DNA from: Cokeromyces recurvatus
Taxonomy: Eukaryota; Mucoromycota; Mucoromycetes; Mucorales; Mucoraceae
NCBI RefSeq assembly: GCF_025118155.1
Contig: NW_026251414.1
Span: forward strand, 186,001-250,000
Length of the DNA stretch: 64,000 nt
Reading direction: 5' to 3'
Shown here: in pieces, positions 3,839-21,090 of the stretch
Layout: the number at the start of each line of letters is the position of its first letter
Position numbering within the stretch: the stretch's first letter is position 1
Translations under genes and position numbers: made by a program
Notes under the pieces: generated by a model
Seen by the model: only the letters and a program-made list of their open reading frames with translations
Databases searched by the model: none
Told to the model about the DNA's origin: nothing

Positions 3839-4030
3839 AAAAAAAAAAAAAAAAGATAAAATTAAACTAACTTTTATTTTTTATTGGATTTTGCACAAAA
3901 GCAGCTGTCCTACATACGCCCCTATTAGGTTTTTTTTTTTTTTTAACTTGAAAACATAAATAAAGCATTATTTAGAGTTTATCTGTGTTTCAAAATAATT
4001 AGTAGTCATCTTTTGAAATGATGCTTAATA
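3839..4030. other. Upstream region of the HSF gene
   Basis: AT-rich spacer with poly(A) and poly(T) tracts between the HSF start codon and the LINE copy at 4031. No coding signal seen. It would contain the HSF promoter. Confidence 0.4.
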
Positions 4031-4958
4031 CGATTAGACATTTTTTTTTATTATTTTTATAAATTAAAATTTATAAAGCGACCTCTGGGCACACAGTATC
4101 TTTATTATATTGGATTGCCCAGGTCAGTTCAAATTATGTGAAAAAAAGTATCTAAAAACCCTCTTATGGGACAAGAGGTAAAAAGGTAAAGGAAAGGAAG
4201 AATAGAAGGTGAGAAAGAAAGGGGAATATTGCTAACAAGTTTAAAGAGACAACCAGTTGAGTCATTTCCTGCATGGATCAAGAAGTGGAGAGGGTAGTTT
4301 ATTGTGCATTAAGTAATCCATTTCCTGTAGAATGGTGCACATAACTGGCCAACAATAGAGCCAGGCAGAAACATCCTGAGAATTTCGGTGCTTATGCTGA
4401 GGGAGATGATTTAAAAGAAAGGAAAGGGGATCTGTAATTGATCGTGGCAAGAATAAACGAGTGTGCATGTGCAAGCATTCAGTGGCGTATGACCGACTAA
4501 AAGTGTACATGAGGATGATATGGGCAGGCTTTAGGTATTCCTCCGGGTAACCAACCAAGACGCCATCGAATAGTTCGACTACGCTCACTGTGTGTCATGG
4601 GTAACCAGAGTTTCGGGTCAATAATCAGATTAGGGCGGCAAGAGGAAAGCAAAACAGAATGTGTCTCGTCACGTAGTTGTTGAAAACTCTCTTCATAAAT
4701 TATTGACGATGTTTTCGAAAGGAGCGTTGGTCTAATGGAATGGAATTGGCGGTATAGAGTCTCCAGCATGGTGTTTGAATGAGTTTATACCATTGAGTGT
4801 TGAAAGCGGAGGCGTGAAGTTCGGGAAGTAATTTAGCGAGCAAGGTATCATCCGGTAAATCAATAGCACGGAAAACGAATTGGGCCTGCAGAATGGACAC
4901 CCTAACCTTCATTGATGGTTGGTTTACCATATGAAGCATCACCTTTACTGACGATCGA
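4031..4958 (-). mobile_element. 5'-truncated LINE copy 1 (ORF2 C-terminus and 3' UTR)
   Basis: Minus-strand remnant of the LINE family whose full copy lies at 57756-63282. Coding matches begin near 4955 (KVMLHMVNQPSMK..ILQAQF) and continue through WLPMTHSERSRTIRWRLGWL, CPYHP and CLHMHTRL, but in three different frames, so it is frameshifted. The 3' end reads ..GTCTAATCG in element orientation, like the other copies. The 5' junction abuts the Fanzor element's left inverted repeat at 4960. I found no convincing target duplication. Confidence 0.85.
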
Positions 4959-4959
4959 A

Positions 4960-4991
4960 GACAATTTGCTTACCTTTTTTAGACAAAATAA
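4960..4991 (+). repeat. Left terminal inverted repeat of the Fanzor-bearing transposon
   Basis: Its reverse complement is identical over 32 bases to 7902-7933. Imperfect similarity extends about 25 bases further inward. Confidence 0.8.
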
Positions 4992-5034
4992 AATTAATAT
5001 TCAGACGAATAATAGAGATTTATGCTTAGGCTTT

Positions 5035-5480
5035 TTACCTATGCTGACTGATAATTGTCAAATAATAACTTAGACGACTTTTGTGACAGTCATCTGGGAT
5101 AATTGTTTTACAAGCAGTTACAATCCTTGGTGTTAATTGATCTGTCTCTATCAAAAAATGACATTTTGTGTGAGACTTGACCTTTGACCAACATTCTTCG
5201 ATAGGGTTTAAGGTGAATAGGGCAGCATAAATAATGCTTTGTAACCGCCTTTTTTTTTTTGATACAATCTGTAACAAATTCAGAATGAAGAATCCTGCAT
5301 TTGTCCATAACAATGTAGGCTCCATGTTTTCCTTGCTTATCTAAAATATCCATATTTTGTTTGATAAATTTTAATACACGGTAGGCGAGAGAATGATTAT
5401 GGAAAATTGAAGTCTAGAATACGACATAGAACAGTACTTTTGTATGTGCTCTACTACTTTCAAACCATTTTACATATTTA
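5035..5480 (-). pseudogene. DDE_3 (IS630/Tc1-mariner superfamily) transposase remnant
   Basis: Minus-strand fragments in two frames. The first carries NMDILDKQGKHGAYIVMDK, equivalent to the second catalytic Asp block (usually IVMDNAxIH). After a shift, the second carries FTLNPIEECWSKVK, the block with the catalytic Glu (SPxLNPIEQxWSxVK). The N-terminal half, including the helix-turn-helix and first Asp, is not recognisable. It points away from the Fanzor gene and shares the same inverted repeats, so it was probably the mobilising enzyme. It is clearly dead. Confidence 0.75.
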
Positions 5481-5725
5481 GCGACCTTATAATTCGATTA
5501 TTGCTTCCAAAATGATGGGTGATATATCTTCAGGTATTGTTTCGTACCCAGTGCTGTTGTCCTCGCCAGTTTATCACATTTTATACTTACATATCATGAT
5601 GAAGTCACACATGATCGTGGAAATTTATAAACTTTCAACGAAAATGTTGTTATTCACTTCTTTACTCTTTTTTATATTTTGCCTTTTTCTTCCTAAATGA
5701 TCTTTATTTTTTATATTGGCCTTAA

Positions 5726-7803
5726 ATAAATCACTTAAAAGTAATAACTTTAAAGACATCTGTTTCCGGTATACAGTGGAGACACGAACTTATACCAAGG
5801 CTAAAAGATCTTGTATCAACCGTTAACATACTTGTTACCCATACTTTTGCATTGACAAAATTTATATTCATCAATGAGTTGGAAAGAATCGAGTTTTTTG
5901 ATCTGGAAAAACACGCTGAAAAGGACTTTTACGTTGAAGTGTTCCTAGAGCTCACCAAACAAAATCGTAAACCTTCTAAATCAACGAAAACTAAAGACTA
6001 TAGAGATTTAATACGAAAGTATAAAAACGAGTATTGTATCTTAACCAAGTATGATCCCATCGAGTTGAAATACGCGCAACAAATAGCAGCATATGAGTGC
6101 GCGAAGATCGACACAGCGTACAAAAATTCAGTCATATTACAATTTGGAAATCGTTTCCGGATGTTCATTAACCACCTTACACAACAAAAGGCCAAGATAA
6201 CCAAGAGGAAACAAGAATTAAAGAAATCCAAGAAAAGCGAGAATGATATCAAGAAAATCATTTCTGACGAAATCACAAAGCCGTTAACCCAATTGAAGCT
6301 TTCCCTTGCCTCCGGGAATACACAGAGTATGCCAGTAACCCTTTTGGACGACAAGGGCGTCAAACTTCTTAAAGAATTTTTTGGTACTTATGGGCCGCGT
6401 TGCGAGTTTATGAAAGCAAGTATATATTATGACTGTAAGACACAGCCTTTGAAGCACCTTAAAGCATATTACAAGACAGCAAAGTACTGTGAAGAATTAG
6501 GCTACAAATCATTCATGTGTTTTCCGCTCCGTCGAACGTATGTGCCATGCTATATGACGATTGATACGTTGATCGTGAACAATCATATTCTGCGTAATAC
6601 AAATAGATCTAATTTAGACAAAGGCTTCATTTGGAGCCAAATAGTCAACCACTCATCGAAGGGCATGAAGGATCAAGGTGCTTCAAAATCTTTGAAATTT
6701 CGCGGAATGATTCAGTCTGATGGTGTAGGTGTGTCGGTGTTGAAGCAAAATAAAGAGAGTACAAAGGGTGGTACGCGTGGTACCAGATTAGAAGAAGACG
6801 ACAACTTTCGATACATACATCTGTTGTCCAAAACTGAACTCGAGGAAACTACCGGAAGATGTGTCCTTATTGATCCTGGACGAAGAGATATGCTCTATTG
6901 CATGCAGGAGAATAGTGAATCTGGAAAAGACAAACACACCTACAGATACACCAGCAACCAGTGTGCGGTCGAGACGAAAAAAAGAAAATTTACGAAACTA
7001 CGCGACATAAAAAAAAACTACGTCAGTAAAGGAGCATGAAAACTATCTATCAAAATTTTCAGCATCAGCAATCAAAGTAGACAAGTTCTCTGACTATCTC
7101 AAAGCACGTTCCATAGTCGAAGATCCACTTCGAGAGTACTACTCAAACGAAAACATACCCCACAAAAATGCCAATCTGCTTCCCTTTCGCAAGTTGAAAT
7201 TATCATCTATCATAAATAAACAACAATCCGATCATCGCTTAGCACAGACTTTGAAGCAACAATTTAGAGACGATGCTATTCTCATCCTTGGGGACTAGAA
7301 TGCCGGAAATACAAAGTACCAAGAGCCAATTCGTGGGAAAGGCGTAAGAAGGATGCTCAAGAAGCATGGTTTCTCTGTTTTACTTATAGATGAACATAAA
7401 ACGTCTTCACTGTGCCCTACTTGTAAGGTCAGTAAACTGGAAACTTTCAAAAAAGTTCAAAACCCACGACCTTTTCGTCGCTCGAAATATCACAAGGTGG
7501 AATGCCACGGACTCTTACGGTAAGCTTCATTTCTTTCTTTTTTTTTAAAAAAAAAATACGTATTAATGAGGTCTTTATAGATGCCTCAATCATCAATGTT
7601 TGGAGTCCCTCCGCCTTTGGAACCGAGATCTTGCTGCGGTCTTAAACTTTCGCGATATTTTGAAGTCTCACCGAGAAGGGCTTGGCCGCCCAACTCGATT
7701 CAAGAGACAATCTTTGAAACGCCCTTTACGCAACAATCAACAAGCTTCTTCCAGAAAACTTTTCCGCCATATGCCATCCAATGAAGGCCGCGAATCTGCC
7801 TGA
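5726..7803 (+). pseudogene. Fanzor (TnpB-like RNA-guided DNA nuclease), recently inactivated
   Basis: Fanzors are eukaryotic OMEGA nucleases: RuvC-fold enzymes guided by an RNA from their own 3' end. Visible in order: a long N-terminal part (open from 5726, no convincing ATG); RuvC-I block CVLIDPGRRDMLYC (Asp codon 6872); RuvC-II block ILILGD-stop-NAG with the stop at 7296, then LLIDEHKTSSLCPTC; a zinc finger CPTC..CHGLLRCLNHQC; and RuvC-III LWNRDLAAVLNFRDIL (Asp codon 7627). A GTAAGC..TATAG intron (7520-7580) joins CHGLLR to CLNHQC in exact phase. Breaks: a one-base indel in the nine-A run at 7009-7017 and TAG where this block normally has Trp. Blocks remain well conserved, so loss looks recent. 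The C-terminal GLGRPTRFKRQ is echoed in the second Fanzor relic. Confidence 0.88.
7520..7580 (+). other. Spliceosomal intron inside the Fanzor zinc finger
   Basis: Donor GTAAGC and acceptor TTATAG, 61 nt. Removal fuses the CHGLLR half to CLNHQC in frame, which is the arrangement expected for the Fanzor/TnpB zinc finger next to RuvC-III. It shows the gene was expressed as a eukaryotic transcript. Confidence 0.8.
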
Positions 7804-7933
7804 GGGGTGGATATTGATATGATAAACCTTGATACAGGTGAGTTCTATTTTTTTTTTTCTATTCTTCTGAATACTAATTTTCTTTTGTCTGATTTCCATT
7901 CTTATTTTGTCTAAAAAAGGTAAGCAAATTGTC
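7804..7933 (+). ncRNA. Candidate Fanzor guide RNA (omega RNA) scaffold region
   Basis: Inference only. In TnpB/Fanzor systems the guide RNA overlaps the 3' end of the nuclease gene and runs to the right end of the element, with the guide just outside. Here that would be roughly 7700-7933, with guide bases from 7934. The stretch contains a duplicated TTTTGTCT motif and the right inverted repeat. No structure was computed. Confidence 0.3.
7902..7933 (-). repeat. Right terminal inverted repeat of the Fanzor-bearing transposon
   Basis: Perfect 32-base inverted match to 4960-4991. The inner continuation at about 7870-7882 also matches the left inner flank after a roughly 20-base insertion. Confidence 0.8.
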
Positions 7934-7991
7934 CAGAAAAAAACTAACATCGTCTAAATTTAAAATGTAAAAACTGTAGAAAGGATCTTCT

Positions 7992-8933
7992 CGGTCCTCA
8001 ACTAAAGTTATGTTGCACTTGGTCAACCTGCCCATAATGAAGGAATGTATTCACCTCCTGCAAGCTAAATTCTTAATTCGGTCTATCTACTCTCCGGACG
8101 ATACTCTTGTTTCCAAGTTTTTACCACATATACGCCCCTCTTCAAGCCATTCTCAATGGTATAAGCTTTCGAAAACACCTATTTGGCAACGGTATACTGC
8201 TTCCTTTGACGATAATATTTATGATCCTCGCGCTTTTGCTGGTATCTGTAAAGCATATCTGAAAGATAATCTTGGTGATCAACGAAACAGTAAGAATGCC
8301 GTTCTCTTGTCTGCCTGCCGTCCTACCCTAGGTATCGATCCTATCCTCTGGTTACCTATGTCAAATGCAGAACGCAGCCGAATAGTCCGCTGGCGTCTAG
8401 GTTGGTTACCTGGTGGTGCCCCTAAACCGTGCATATATCATCCTAATGCATTGTTCACAAGATCCCATGCTATATGGTGTCTACATATGCATCGACGATT
8501 GCAAATGCCTTTGACCGAACCCGACCCTTTGTCCTTCCTCTTAAATAAGCTACCAAATAAACAAAAACGCATGCCACCAATCTCATCAGCTTTGAACTCA
8601 TCTGTCTTTCCCGCCTGGACGATTCGTTGGCCTACTATATGCCTTATACTTTTTGAACTTGACTATCTCCATCATGGTAAACTTCCTCCAAAAACTGCCC
8701 CCCTTGGTACAAAACTTGTAAACTGGATACGTAACTCTGAATCTAGTATTTATTGATATATCTTGCTTTTCCTTTTCCCTTCTCTTTCTTTTTTACCCTT
8801 TTGCCTATCAAAAGGTTTTTTAGTACACTTTTATCCTTTCTCGAACTGACCCGGGCAATCCAATACGCCAGTATTATGTGCTCACATGGGTTGTTTAAAT
8901 TTTTGTTATAAATAAAATAATTCTTCTTAATCG
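7992..8933 (+). mobile_element. 5'-truncated LINE copy 2, with 15-bp target duplication
   Basis: Plus-strand copy of the LINE 3' end, flanked by identical 15-bp direct repeats at 7977-7991 and 8934-8948 (TAGAAAGGATCTTCT). It keeps an uninterrupted C-terminal ORF2 segment from 8010 to 8756: MLHLVNLPIMKE, then RIVRWRLGWLPGGAPKPCIY, FTRSHAIWCLHMHRRLQMP. The 3' UTR ends ..TTCTTAATCG. It was inserted 43 bp outside the right inverted repeat of the Fanzor element. Confidence 0.9.
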
Positions 8934-8948
8934 TAGAAAGGATCTTCT

Positions 8949-17301: not shown

Positions 17302-17346
17302 AATTTTTGACGGGCTTTGAAATTAAATTAGTATCCTTTGGCCTTA
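17302..17346 (+). repeat. Left inverted repeat flanking the second Fanzor relic (candidate)
   Basis: Matches the reverse complement of 21661-21705 at about 37 of 45 positions by hand alignment, with a shared TTTTGACGGGCTTT core. It may be the terminal repeat of the element that carried the Fanzor relic at 18.2-19.5 kb. Confidence 0.45.
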
Positions 17347-17348
17347 CA

Positions 17349-17467
17349 ATTAAACATTTTTTATTTTTATAATTTTTATAAATTAAAATTTATAAAGTGA
17401 CCTATAAGCACATAATATCTTTGTTATGTTGGATTGCCCAGGTCAGTTCAAATTATGTGAAAAAACT
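17349..17467 (-). mobile_element. LINE copy 3: minimal 3' UTR fragment with 12-bp target duplication
   Basis: Only the last ~119 bp of the LINE 3' UTR are present (minus strand; the GATTGCCCAGGTCAG block matches the 3' UTR of copy 1). It is flanked by TTTGGCCTTACA at 17337-17348 and 17468-17479. This is extreme 5' truncation. Confidence 0.85.
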
Positions 17468-17479
17468 TTGGCCTTACAG

Positions 17480-18246
17480 TTTTTACACTTTAAATTTGGA
17501 CGAAGTTAGTTCTTTTCTAGATGAATCAAAATTAGTTTTCAGATATTTAGTTTACCTTTTTTGGAAGAAGCGAACATGGAAATCAAACAAAAGAACTCGA
17601 GAAATTAAATTGAGACAAAATATTAGACGAGCTAAAATGCAACTGTAGGCTAACAGGTTAGCTATTTTTTTTTTTTTTTTGCCTCTTACATGGATGCTAC
17701 TTGCGAACAACTTTAAGAAGGTTTAGCTAGCGTATTTATAAAAAAAAATCCATCTTTTGGTGTTGATTTAATTGTACAATGGGAAACCAATTCACGACTG
17801 CGTTGAGTAAATTTAAGGATTTTTTTTTCTTCGATTTAGGGGTGGATTCTTAAAAAAAAACAGTCAGCTTTTCGAGCATTCGTACCATTATAGCACTACA
17901 CGATGTAAGACTGGGACTCAAAAACTCATTTTTTAATCATAACCTATATCAAACCTTGGGAGCCAAAAAAAAAAGGATCTGAGATCTCTTTGTCTCTTTA
18001 AATTGACAAGTTCATATCTGTATTCAGCCGGTCTAAGAGAAATACAAATAAGTAGTTAGTCTGCGCTTCATTATATAACTAATAAGCAAGACATCTTTAG
18101 TGATTAATCTTGTGGTGTGATCTTCAATATATCATATCTTAATCCTATTGTATTGGATCCCAGATCGATAATTATGAACTGAATTTTTGCTATACTATTT
18201 CTTCCTCTCTCTTCTTCTGTTTGTCTTTTATTTTTTTATCTTTCTT
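17480..18246 (+). other. Decayed sequence between LINE copy 3 and the Fanzor-2 relic
   Basis: A short open frame ending at 17648 encodes SSFLDESKLVFRYLVYLFWK and a basic tail (WKSNKRTREIKLRQNIRRAK). It could be a remnant of the Fanzor-2 N-terminal half, but I cannot prove this. The rest to 18246 shows stops in all frames. Confidence 0.35.
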
Positions 18247-19489
18247 TTATTAATGACACGTACACTCATATATACTGAAGCCGAAACACTTATTGCAGCA
18301 AAAAAGCTTGCAAAACGAGAAAGCATTTTGAAGCTTTGGAAAATTTACTGCAAAAGAACAGACTATTTTTGAACTCTATATACACAGATGGATACACTTG
18401 CAAAGTCTCATTTTGTCGAAAGACAAGTGAAACTTCTGAGAGTGCTTCTCTTCAATTAAATGATTTTAATCAAGAAGAGATTAATACATATTTCAGACCG
18501 TGAACCGTAGACCCCGGCCGTAAAGATGTATTTGTATCTTATCATGGGAACAATGATATTCGAAGTCTTTCTAGTGCAGAGTATTATAATATGATGGGAA
18601 ATACGAATAGACTTAAAAAAGAACAAAAAAGGAAGCAAGAATTAGGCTTAACTAAAATTGAAACTGATACCCCAACACCAAAAACAGTATCATCAGAAGA
18701 TTACCTTCAACATGTGTTATACATGATGGAGCATATGAGTCGCTTATTTGAATTTTATGGGTTTAACACTGCAAGATACGGATGGAAAAACTACGTTGGC
18801 TCTCAAATCGCTATAGAAACAAGCGTCAATATTTTGTTAAATGGAGGTAATAAGTATAACAAGAATAGAAGAAAGAATATGAAGAGAAACAGAAGAAGAA
18901 AAAGAAAGGTCAGAAGGACTGAAGACAAATCAAGAGGAACGAGCGGCTGCCAATTCACAATTGAGAAGGTGTAGGAAGAACAAGAGCCGTTTCGAAGAAG
19001 GCGATCGCAAGAAAATGCCTCTTGTAATCTTTGGTGATGGTCTTCAAAACAAGGATCACATCAAATTCAAAGGTCTTCGACACGGCGTTTCAAACAAGAT
19101 GTATAGGCAATTAAAGCATAGAGAGAGATTTGGAGAGTTGTTACTTTTAGATATTAATGAGTATAAAACCTCCAAGGTTAGTACAACGATGTCCATATAT
19201 CACATGTCCTAAACAGTATCATTATAGAACTGTAACTCTTGCTTGAATCAAGACCTCAAGGATCTGAAATGTGGGGAAGGTGACGATGTCAAACGAATCC
19301 ATCAAGTATTGAAGTGCAACATTTGCAATATATTTTTTTTTTTGGAATCGTGATGTTATGGCATCCAAGAATATGTTTCTGATTGCTTCTTCAATTTGGA
19401 ATGGGAACGATTGCCCTACTGTCTTCACGCGACAAAGCGCCACCTCCAATGTGGTTGCCACATCTCATTCCGGTGAGGTGCTGGTTTAA
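18247..19489 (+). pseudogene. Second Fanzor relic, distinct subfamily
   Basis: Coding remnants in shifting frames. RuvC-I is TVDPGRKDVFVSYHGN (Asp codon 18510), preceded in frame by a TGA at 18501. An insert with FYGFNTARYGWKNYVGSQ and an Arg/Lys-rich stretch follows. RuvC-II is PLVIFGDGLQNKDHIKFKG (Asp codon 19036), then LLLLDINEYKTSKV. The zinc finger is half lost: the first CxxC is gone, while VLKCNIC survives. RuvC-III is FWNRDVMASKNMFLIASSIW (Asp codon 19352). Frameshifts fall near 18.85-18.90 kb and in the zinc-finger region. Spacing and residues differ clearly from the 5.7-7.8 kb gene, so this is another lineage, not a recent duplicate. Non-functional. Confidence 0.82.
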
Positions 19490-19603
19490 AGATTTTACAG
19501 GTAAGAAGTCTTTACGAAAAAAAATAGCAATTTTTTTTTTCTGAATCTCATCTAACGTTTTGTTTCTGAATTTGAAGTAGAAATACTGTATAAAGTGCAA
19601 CCT

Positions 19604-20115
19604 GGATGGCGACTTGGTTGGTTACCTCTTGGTAAACCCCAAGCCTGGCCCCTTCCATCCAATCCAAATGAACTCTTCACACGCTCACATAGTTTTTCTT
19701 GTTTGCATATGCATAACCGCCTTCAGATGCCCAAATCTATTGAAGATCCACTCTCTTATCTCTTGAACCTATTACCATCAACATTTCTTGCTAAGGAAGT
19801 GAGAAAATCAATCGATGCCTGGCTCATACGCTGGCCTTCCATATGTGCAATTCTGCTTAAGATGGACTATCTAGCTCACTCCCAAATCCCTGAACCCTCT
19901 GACCATCATCTTCTTTCAATACAAAAACGAATTTCTGATAGTTAATTATCATCACTTATATATACACTTCAATATTTTCCCTTTTATATCCAAAAAGGGG
20001 TTTTTCTTTCCTTTTCTTTTTTCCATAGCGATCTGACCAGGGCAAAACAGCATATAAATGCTATGTGCTCATTGGTCATTTTTTAATTTTTTTTAAATAA
20101 AATTCTTTAATCGCG
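19604..20115 (+). mobile_element. 5'-truncated LINE copy 4, with 13-bp target duplication
   Basis: Flanked by TAAAGTGCAACCT at 19591-19603 and 20116-20128. It encodes the ORF2 C-terminal part from 19604 to 19945 (WRLGWLPLGKP, FTRSHSFSCLHMHNRLQMPK), very close to the full copy at 57.9-58.6 kb. The CPxHP part of the motif is altered by a small insertion. The 3' UTR contains CTGACCAGGGCAAAACAGC and ends ..CTTTAATCGCG. Confidence 0.9.
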
Positions 20116-21090
20116 TAAAGTGCAACCTCTGATAACAAATAATCTACAGAGTTAGACGTATGCTCCAAAAAAAAAAAAAAAATAAAATAAAATAAAACCT
20201 CGATTTTGACATTATGAATGCACTCATTGGAGCGTTTCATATAATTGACGTCAGTATTCAGCTGATGCTTAGAAAGTTTGCTTGAGCATTTCTCAGTTAC
20301 ATCCAGTAACTTGAGTTAAAACAGCACAAATTATGACAGTGTGCTTATCTAAAAGGAAAAAAAAATAAAAAAGAAAAAAAAAAAAGGACGCAAATTTCTA
20401 TCTATCTAATGGAAATGTAAGGAAAGCCTTATTTTCAAACATTAGTTTACTTTTTTCTTTTTTGATACGTAATAGACATTTGAATATATTTCTAACTTTA
20501 GGGTTTCAGCAAATCTTCTAACTGTAAGCTGGTGCTGATGGTACTTTCACCTTTTAACTAAGACATGTTCCTTCTAAAAAAGGCACTCTTACTGTCTCAC
20601 TTATAGTAAATTGATTAGAGCAATATACATGGGAATATAGTATAAATTTTGGTCTGGATTTGGTTGCTGTTTGTTTCTGTCTGATTTCTCTCCTCTAATC
20701 CAACTATAAAAAAAAAAAAAAATCTTGCAACCATCAATATCAGTAGCCCTTTTTACCTCTTACTCTGTGTGCATTTTTTTTTCAAAAAGAGTTAATATTT
20801 ACTGGATTTTCCCATCCAATGCAAACCTTAAAAAAAAAAAAAAATGTTTGCCTTTATGTGAATTGAGTTAACATGATTTTTTTTTAATCATTTTTTTTTT
20901 ACCTGATTTTTTTTTTATTTTTGCCTTAATAGACGATAACAATTAACATTGAGTCACACTTCAGCAACAACCAGACTCAGACATTAATTATGTATAACTT
21001 TGAGTGAATGCGATTATAGCAGCAAGGCCAGGATTTTGTTTGGAATTTTTTTTTTTTTTTGAAGCATATGTCCAACTTGTTACAGATATG

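Follow-up and report, generated by a model that had tools for sequence, protein, structure and literature searches.

A decayed Fanzor1-carrying Tc1/mariner-type transposon of Cokeromyces recurvatus with ends that appear to be landing sites for LINEs

A 64-kb stretch of the 28-Mb, 64-contig genome of the fungus Cokeromyces recurvatus (C21:186001–250000; hereafter, the window) contains what is very probably a dead DNA transposon of the Tc1/mariner type, which carried an accessory Fanzor1 nuclease gene and whose ends were apparently used by LINEs as landing sites. The original prediction, made from the letters of the window, had placed at 4960–7933 an element in which 32-bp perfect inverted repeats enclose a transposase remnant and a Fanzor gene. 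The 32-bp sequence indeed occurs exactly twice in the window, in inverted orientation and with no mismatch, and it found 0 matches in 100 shuffles. Both genes are now relics; in none of the five copies of the subfamily that we call FzA (the window copy, L009, L010, L011 and L012) are the two of them whole.

Judged by its sequence, the plus-strand relic is a Fanzor1, and the nearest among solved proteins is PpFz1 (Parasitella parasitica Fanzor 1; PDB 9cf0–9cf3; PMC11423790), which has the same catalytic motifs. The main open frame (5726–7036), which extends up to RuvC-I, matches the characterised Fanzors PpFz1 (E 7.1e-105) and SpuFz1 (E 2.5e-26), and a later segment that includes the zinc finger (7299–7520) matches the same two proteins with E values of 2.9e-23 and 5.5e-8, as well as Pfam TNB with an E of 1.8e-4, which is under the cut-off. 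The RuvC-I, RuvC-II, zinc-finger and RuvC-III blocks that had been predicted are readable in this order as DPGRRD (the RuvC D, in a DPG), DEHKTS (the alternative E), CPTC..CHGLLRC..C and RDLAAVL (the RuvC-III D), with the DPG and alternative-glutamate signatures taken from the part of PMC10711439 that describes them. Failure of the protein to match Fanzor or TnpB profiles had been named in advance as grounds for giving up the prediction, and the PpFz1 and SpuFz1 matches remove those grounds.

The Fanzor gene is broken by a frame shift near 7011–7036 and by a stop at 7296–7298. Unlike PpFz1 and the copies of a second group, FzB, the window subfamily lacks ~100 residues, which are missing from the frame at 7011–7295 when it is compared with PpFz1 and the FzB copy L033; these residues are possibly the insertion called FRI in PMC11423790. 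After the segment with the alternative glutamate and zinc finger (7299–7519) comes a putative intron (7520–7580, GTAAGC..TATAG), placed from the reading frames and the public gene model of this Fanzor (P0039, 620 residues, which reads CHGLLRCLNHQC across it), and then an exon with RuvC-III (RDLAAVLNF) and the stop (7581–7803); all of these parts are on the plus strand. The TDG motif of the WED domain reads as SDG in the window relic, as TDG in its relatives P0043 and P0045 and, by eye, as TDG in the second Fanzor element of the window. Between subfamilies, the differences in the Fanzor exon numbered 100/84/207 (L023) and 109/72/202 (L025) at codon positions 1/2/3, whereas against the four close copies the third-position excess was small or absent (L009, 14/9/15; L010, 10/10/16; L011, 15/20/28; L012, 26/25/38). 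Because of this contrast we conclude that the Fanzor protein was, to judge by its codons, under selection and kept working while the subfamilies diverged, and that the present copies have decayed.

The predicted opposed transposase is present on the minus strand as two overlapping frames (5111–5413 and 5038–5340; 5038–5413 overall), which include the region of the second catalytic D (VMDK) and the motif NPIEECW. In the window it matches the DDE_3 profile only weakly (E 0.035 and 0.13), and in L009 the match is under the cut-off (E 3.5e-4), but it is clear in L011, in which a 111-residue frame passed the cut-off with an E of 1.2e-9 and the second D and the E of the triad can be read; a 65-residue piece of L011 had no DDE_3 match, and we did not find the first catalytic D. 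These results support the assignment of the relic as the end of a DDE_3 (Tc1/mariner/IS630-like) transposase.

The predicted limits proved wrong, as each 32-bp block is the inward portion of a terminal repeat that extends further out. Beyond 32 bp the inverted arms reach 50 nt at 86% identity, and comparison with the sister copies yielded a full repeat that opens TA-CAGTTTTTAC (in longer form, TACAGTTTTTACAC), the outward continuation in these copies running to TACAGTTTTTAC. At the left, only the inner part is left (4960–5009, plus strand, about repeat positions 67–117, with 4960–4991 corresponding to the earlier 32-bp block); the outer ~66 positions are gone, and a minus-strand LINE fragment joins directly. 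The right repeat (7860–7976) is nearly complete, with an internal gap of ~22 nt relative to L016 when aligned by eye, and it carries the true end of the element to 7976, next to a TA that can be read from the letters (7977–7978). This TA is seen on the right side only, a TA on both sides being readable only where both ends survive. The 3′ region together with the right repeat (7804–7976, plus strand) is the expected location of any right-end RNA. In each of 10 repeats we counted 3–5 occurrences of (T/C)NGACGA, compared with 0.35 expected per 150 bp, mostly spaced by 21–23 bp with some wider gaps; we take them to be likely transposase sites.

Four further copies of the element lie at C45 (L009), C15, C12 and C24 and are 97, 97, 93 and 91% identical to it over the main match (76% for an extra piece of the C24 copy). 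In all five copies, which occupy different genomic places, the transposase and Fanzor relics are collinear, and because L009 and L011 carry both between terminal repeats, we conclude that the two genes moved as one unit, as had been predicted. Copies with both genes between the repeats were what the prediction had proposed to look for, their absence counting against it, and these two are found within the C. recurvatus genome. L010 and L012 have part of the transposase only and have lost the left repeat; their left limits, near the equivalents of window positions 5244–5251, are cut at nearly the same poly-T tract, and on the right side both copies run through to the end of the repeat.

That the transposase was the element's own is correct in part. 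A DDE_3 relic does lie in the unit, but a whole transposase was found in none of the five FzA copies. Over the transposase region the differences from the window copy at codon positions 1/2/3 (L009, 2/8/5; L010, 7/6/7; L011, 9/12/12; L012, 14/11/12) include no third-position excess. Because the differences are spread evenly over codon positions and the relic is whole in 0 of 5 copies, these sequences indicate that in its latest rounds of transposition the element probably relied on a transposase supplied from elsewhere.

The Fanzors fall into three groups: FzA, which comprises the window copy and its relatives; FzB, which comprises L033 and others; and FzC, which includes L016 and a second element of the window (17477–19588, plus strand). 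FzA and FzC elements have one common terminal repeat. The second element, an FzC-lineage relic, has this repeat in inverted orientation at its two ends, with a TA on both sides (17475–17476 and 19589–19590), as befits a TA duplication. Beside FzB, no terminal repeat was seen in L033, L037, L040 or L042–L046, and L036 and L039 had only sub-threshold fragments of it. When we scored 40 copies of the repeat (from 98 first-look candidates, with duplicated regions counted as they stand), a Fanzor match lay within 4.6 kb on the inner side of 29 and on the outer side of 1, compared with ~0.027 per side expected by chance; 11 of the 40 had no inner Fanzor match. The 29 copies offer naturally occurring material for studying how a Fanzor serves its transposon. 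In FzB, L033:3141–5102 (C56) has a stop-free frame of 653 residues that matches PpFz1 with an E of 1e-193, the terminal part of the protein lying outside the frame. One repeat-bounded unit (L017:1995–3645 and L018:1747–3403) has an FzC relic by one end and an FzA C-terminal piece by the other, as if two right halves had been joined. Genome-wide, there are at least 159 FzC-type and at least 184 DDE_3 matches (matches rather than loci, with 150 candidates scored for each).

The FzC elements bear on an alternative that we regard as unlikely but still worth weighing, namely that a Fanzor element moved by an unrelated transposase once received the DDE_3 transposase as an independent insertion. Consistent with this scenario, relatives of the transposase are present elsewhere in the genome, and among the matches listed (150 of 268 candidates scored) none fell inside the paired-repeat FzC elements at C9, C12, C25, C20 and C18, a separate search adding only the weak match in C18. 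However, that match (E 9e-4) occurs in an element of the other Fanzor lineage, C18:80837–85365, which is laid out like the reported element: the transposase piece has the same relative place and orientation, and the Fanzor is an FzC. Moreover, the terminal repeat starts with CAGT beside a TA, which is what is expected of Tc1/mariner, the kind of transposon to which DDE_3 transposases belong. We therefore prefer the reading in which the transposase and the Fanzor belong to one element. The DDE transposase would have acted at the long terminal repeats (TA-CAGTTTTTAC..., with their GACGA-type motifs) and moved the unit into TA sites; by analogy with TnpB and other Fanzors, the Fanzor, guided by a right-end RNA, would probably have cut the emptied site, whose repair restored the element; and the last copies, which have decayed, probably owed their movement to a transposase supplied from elsewhere.

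The association of Fanzor1 with a mariner transposase has been in print since 2013, and the reported element is a new fungal member of that class. In the parts of Bao and Jurka (2013; PMC3627910) that concern them, the Tc/mariner elements PGv-1, PUl-1 and PUl-4 resemble the C. recurvatus element in having Fanzor1 with a mariner-like transposase (or Fanzor1 alone), terminal inverted repeats and TA duplications. The examples named in section 7 of that paper differ in host (PGv, from a virus, PUl and HMa), and here, unlike there, two Fanzor lineages use one terminal repeat. The Fanzor1 proteins of Rhizopus, Phycomyces and Mucor are assigned in its section 12 to MuDr or unclassified elements; a table lists further Mucorales families, among which there may be a mariner case. 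The accessible parts of the literature on Fanzors in Mucorales and other fungi and on transposable elements of C. recurvatus yielded no report of a Fanzor1–mariner element in Cokeromyces. The C. recurvatus element shows a Fanzor1 of the Parasitella type residing in a fungal transposon that inserts at TA and whose ends are defined.

LINEs lie against the ends of both elements of the window and point outward from them. At the right end of the reported element, a 5′-truncated LINE (7992–8932, plus strand) is flanked by an exact 16-nt duplication (7976–7991 and 8933–8948), and at its left end, a 5′-truncated LINE (4032–4959, minus strand), shared with the C45 copy, is fused to the remaining part of the repeat. 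The second element has a LINE 3′ fragment at its left end (17349–17465, minus strand; 13-nt duplication 17336–17348 and 17466–17478) and a LINE at its right end (19604–20115, plus strand; 13-nt duplication 19591–19603 and 20116–20128). The LINE reverse transcriptase matches RVT_1 with an E of 3.5e-28. We tested 21 transposon ends, with L015 and L018 dropped as duplicates and L013, L027 and the left end of L011 not entered; because the loci had been chosen by Fanzor or repeat matches, these ends do not sample LINE sites at random. Exact 13–16-nt duplications surrounded outward LINEs at 5 of the 21 (window 7976, 17478 and 19591, one in L016 and one in L034), each starting no more than 3 nt from the transposon end, which is the recurrent, position-specific insertion with duplication that marks a target-specific LINE. 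At 5 more ends (L009, L010, L022, the left end of L023, and L035, whose repeat is damaged) LINE letters begin ~0–14 nt outside and no duplication was found, and the remaining 11 of the 21 had no LINE. Six LINE insertions in all had an exact duplication of at least 13 nt, the sixth (L037, 15 nt) being beside no recognised repeat.

The arrangement might simply reflect chance, with LINEs and Fanzors accumulating together wherever repeats are dense. Both kinds of element are abundant in this genome, Fanzor or repeat matches guided the choice of the 21 ends, and for 48 of 80 LINE tails scored genome-wide (40 of 109 plus 40 of 83 candidates) no Fanzor or repeat mark lay within 3 kb on either side. 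This explanation is nonetheless largely contradicted, and we consider it very improbable. The marks were lopsided, lying within 3 kb on the 5′ side of 30 of the 80 tails and on the 3′ side of 2, where chance would give 1.6 per side; at a distance of up to 1 kb the counts were 15 and 1, compared with 0.55. The five duplications, moreover, exceeded every one of the shuffled controls (20 per end), in which no match was longer than 12. Lying side by side does not by itself reveal which element arrived first, and the transposon might instead have inserted preferentially just upstream of LINE 5′ ends. The 5′ truncation points of the LINEs vary from case to case, however, the duplications bracket the LINE and start where the transposon ends, and the second element of the window has such a LINE at both ends, all of which leaves this reversed order with hardly any credibility. 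LINE insertion at pre-existing transposon ends is the reading that we retain.

Some of these LINEs have become part of larger units. The window and C45 copies share the same LINE–repeat join and are 96% identical over 4025–7982, and in eight other units (L020, L021, L022, L024, L025, L034, L035 and L041) the left limit common to all is a LINE 3′ end, as it is, with another LINE type, in the window and C45 copies. Such limits, falling exactly at the LINE 3′ end in eight copies and again with a second LINE type, are what would be seen if the composites had been propagated through read-through RNA copied by the LINE reverse transcriptase, rather than as a TA-inserting transposon. In four composites examined by eye (window, L009, L034 and L041), though, no second copy of the letters that follow the LINE tail is present next to the right end, and in 6 of 10 (window, L009, L021, L024, L034 and L041, but not L020, L022 or L035, and with none found for L025) the right end is transposon-like and then followed by TA. 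We therefore do not favour LINE retrotransposition as the spreading route, and rate it improbable.

The junctions also suggest how the LINEs may have entered the transposon ends. In 17 of 21 LINE 3′ junctions, AATC is followed by GTA, the exceptions being L023, window 57759 and both LINEs of the second element; the eight composites included in this count represent one common LINE insertion and are not independent. The position of the LINEs and the GTA suggest that the first nick was made in the terminal repeat at TAC^AGT and that the exposed TAC paired with a GUA that the LINE RNA apparently carries at its end, insertion there resulting in the 13–16-nt duplication. While the junctions themselves are observed, the fuller proposal is one that we hold about evenly with its negation: that a fungal LINE lineage became specialised for insertion at the outer ends of Tc1/mariner transposons that carry a Fanzor, nicking at TAC^AGT, priming with GUA and creating an outward duplication of 13–16 nt (about the reach of Fanzor1 right-end RNA beyond the duplication), and that the LINE 3′ end then became the new outer limit of units that multiplied. 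Such a specialisation would amount to a three-layer nested mobile system, with a LINE on a transposon on an RNA-guided nuclease.

The Xenopus non-LTR retrotransposon Tx1L has its insertion site within a DNA transposon. A LINE at the ends described here would add another example of retrotransposons that take DNA transposons as their address; it differs from Tx1L in its host and in having its site at the outer end of a TA-inserting Fanzor transposon. Within the literature searched, mostly as titles and abstracts together with PMC8869645 and PMC6895275, no description was found of a LINE inserting at the ends of such transposons, and the outward LINEs with exact duplications at Fanzor transposon ends appear to be the new part of our results.

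Fanzor cutting was considered as a cause of the LINE insertions and set aside, because LINEs also occur at left ends, where no guide is expected, as in the second element and L023. At the right end, the nearest point of comparison is the SfAV Fanzor1, which likewise resides in a DNA transposon with terminal repeats and whose right-end RNA, in the portion of PMC10711439 that reports it, extends ~15 nt beyond the duplication. The SfAV element encodes a Fanzor only and its RNA was seen, whereas the C. recurvatus element is known from its sequence. The right LINE of the reported element starts 13 nt past the TA, close to that ~15-nt reach, and thereby breaks into the presumed guide region beyond the right end; such LINEs at right ends, interrupting the presumed guide at a nearly fixed distance, would provide a natural experiment on guide length.
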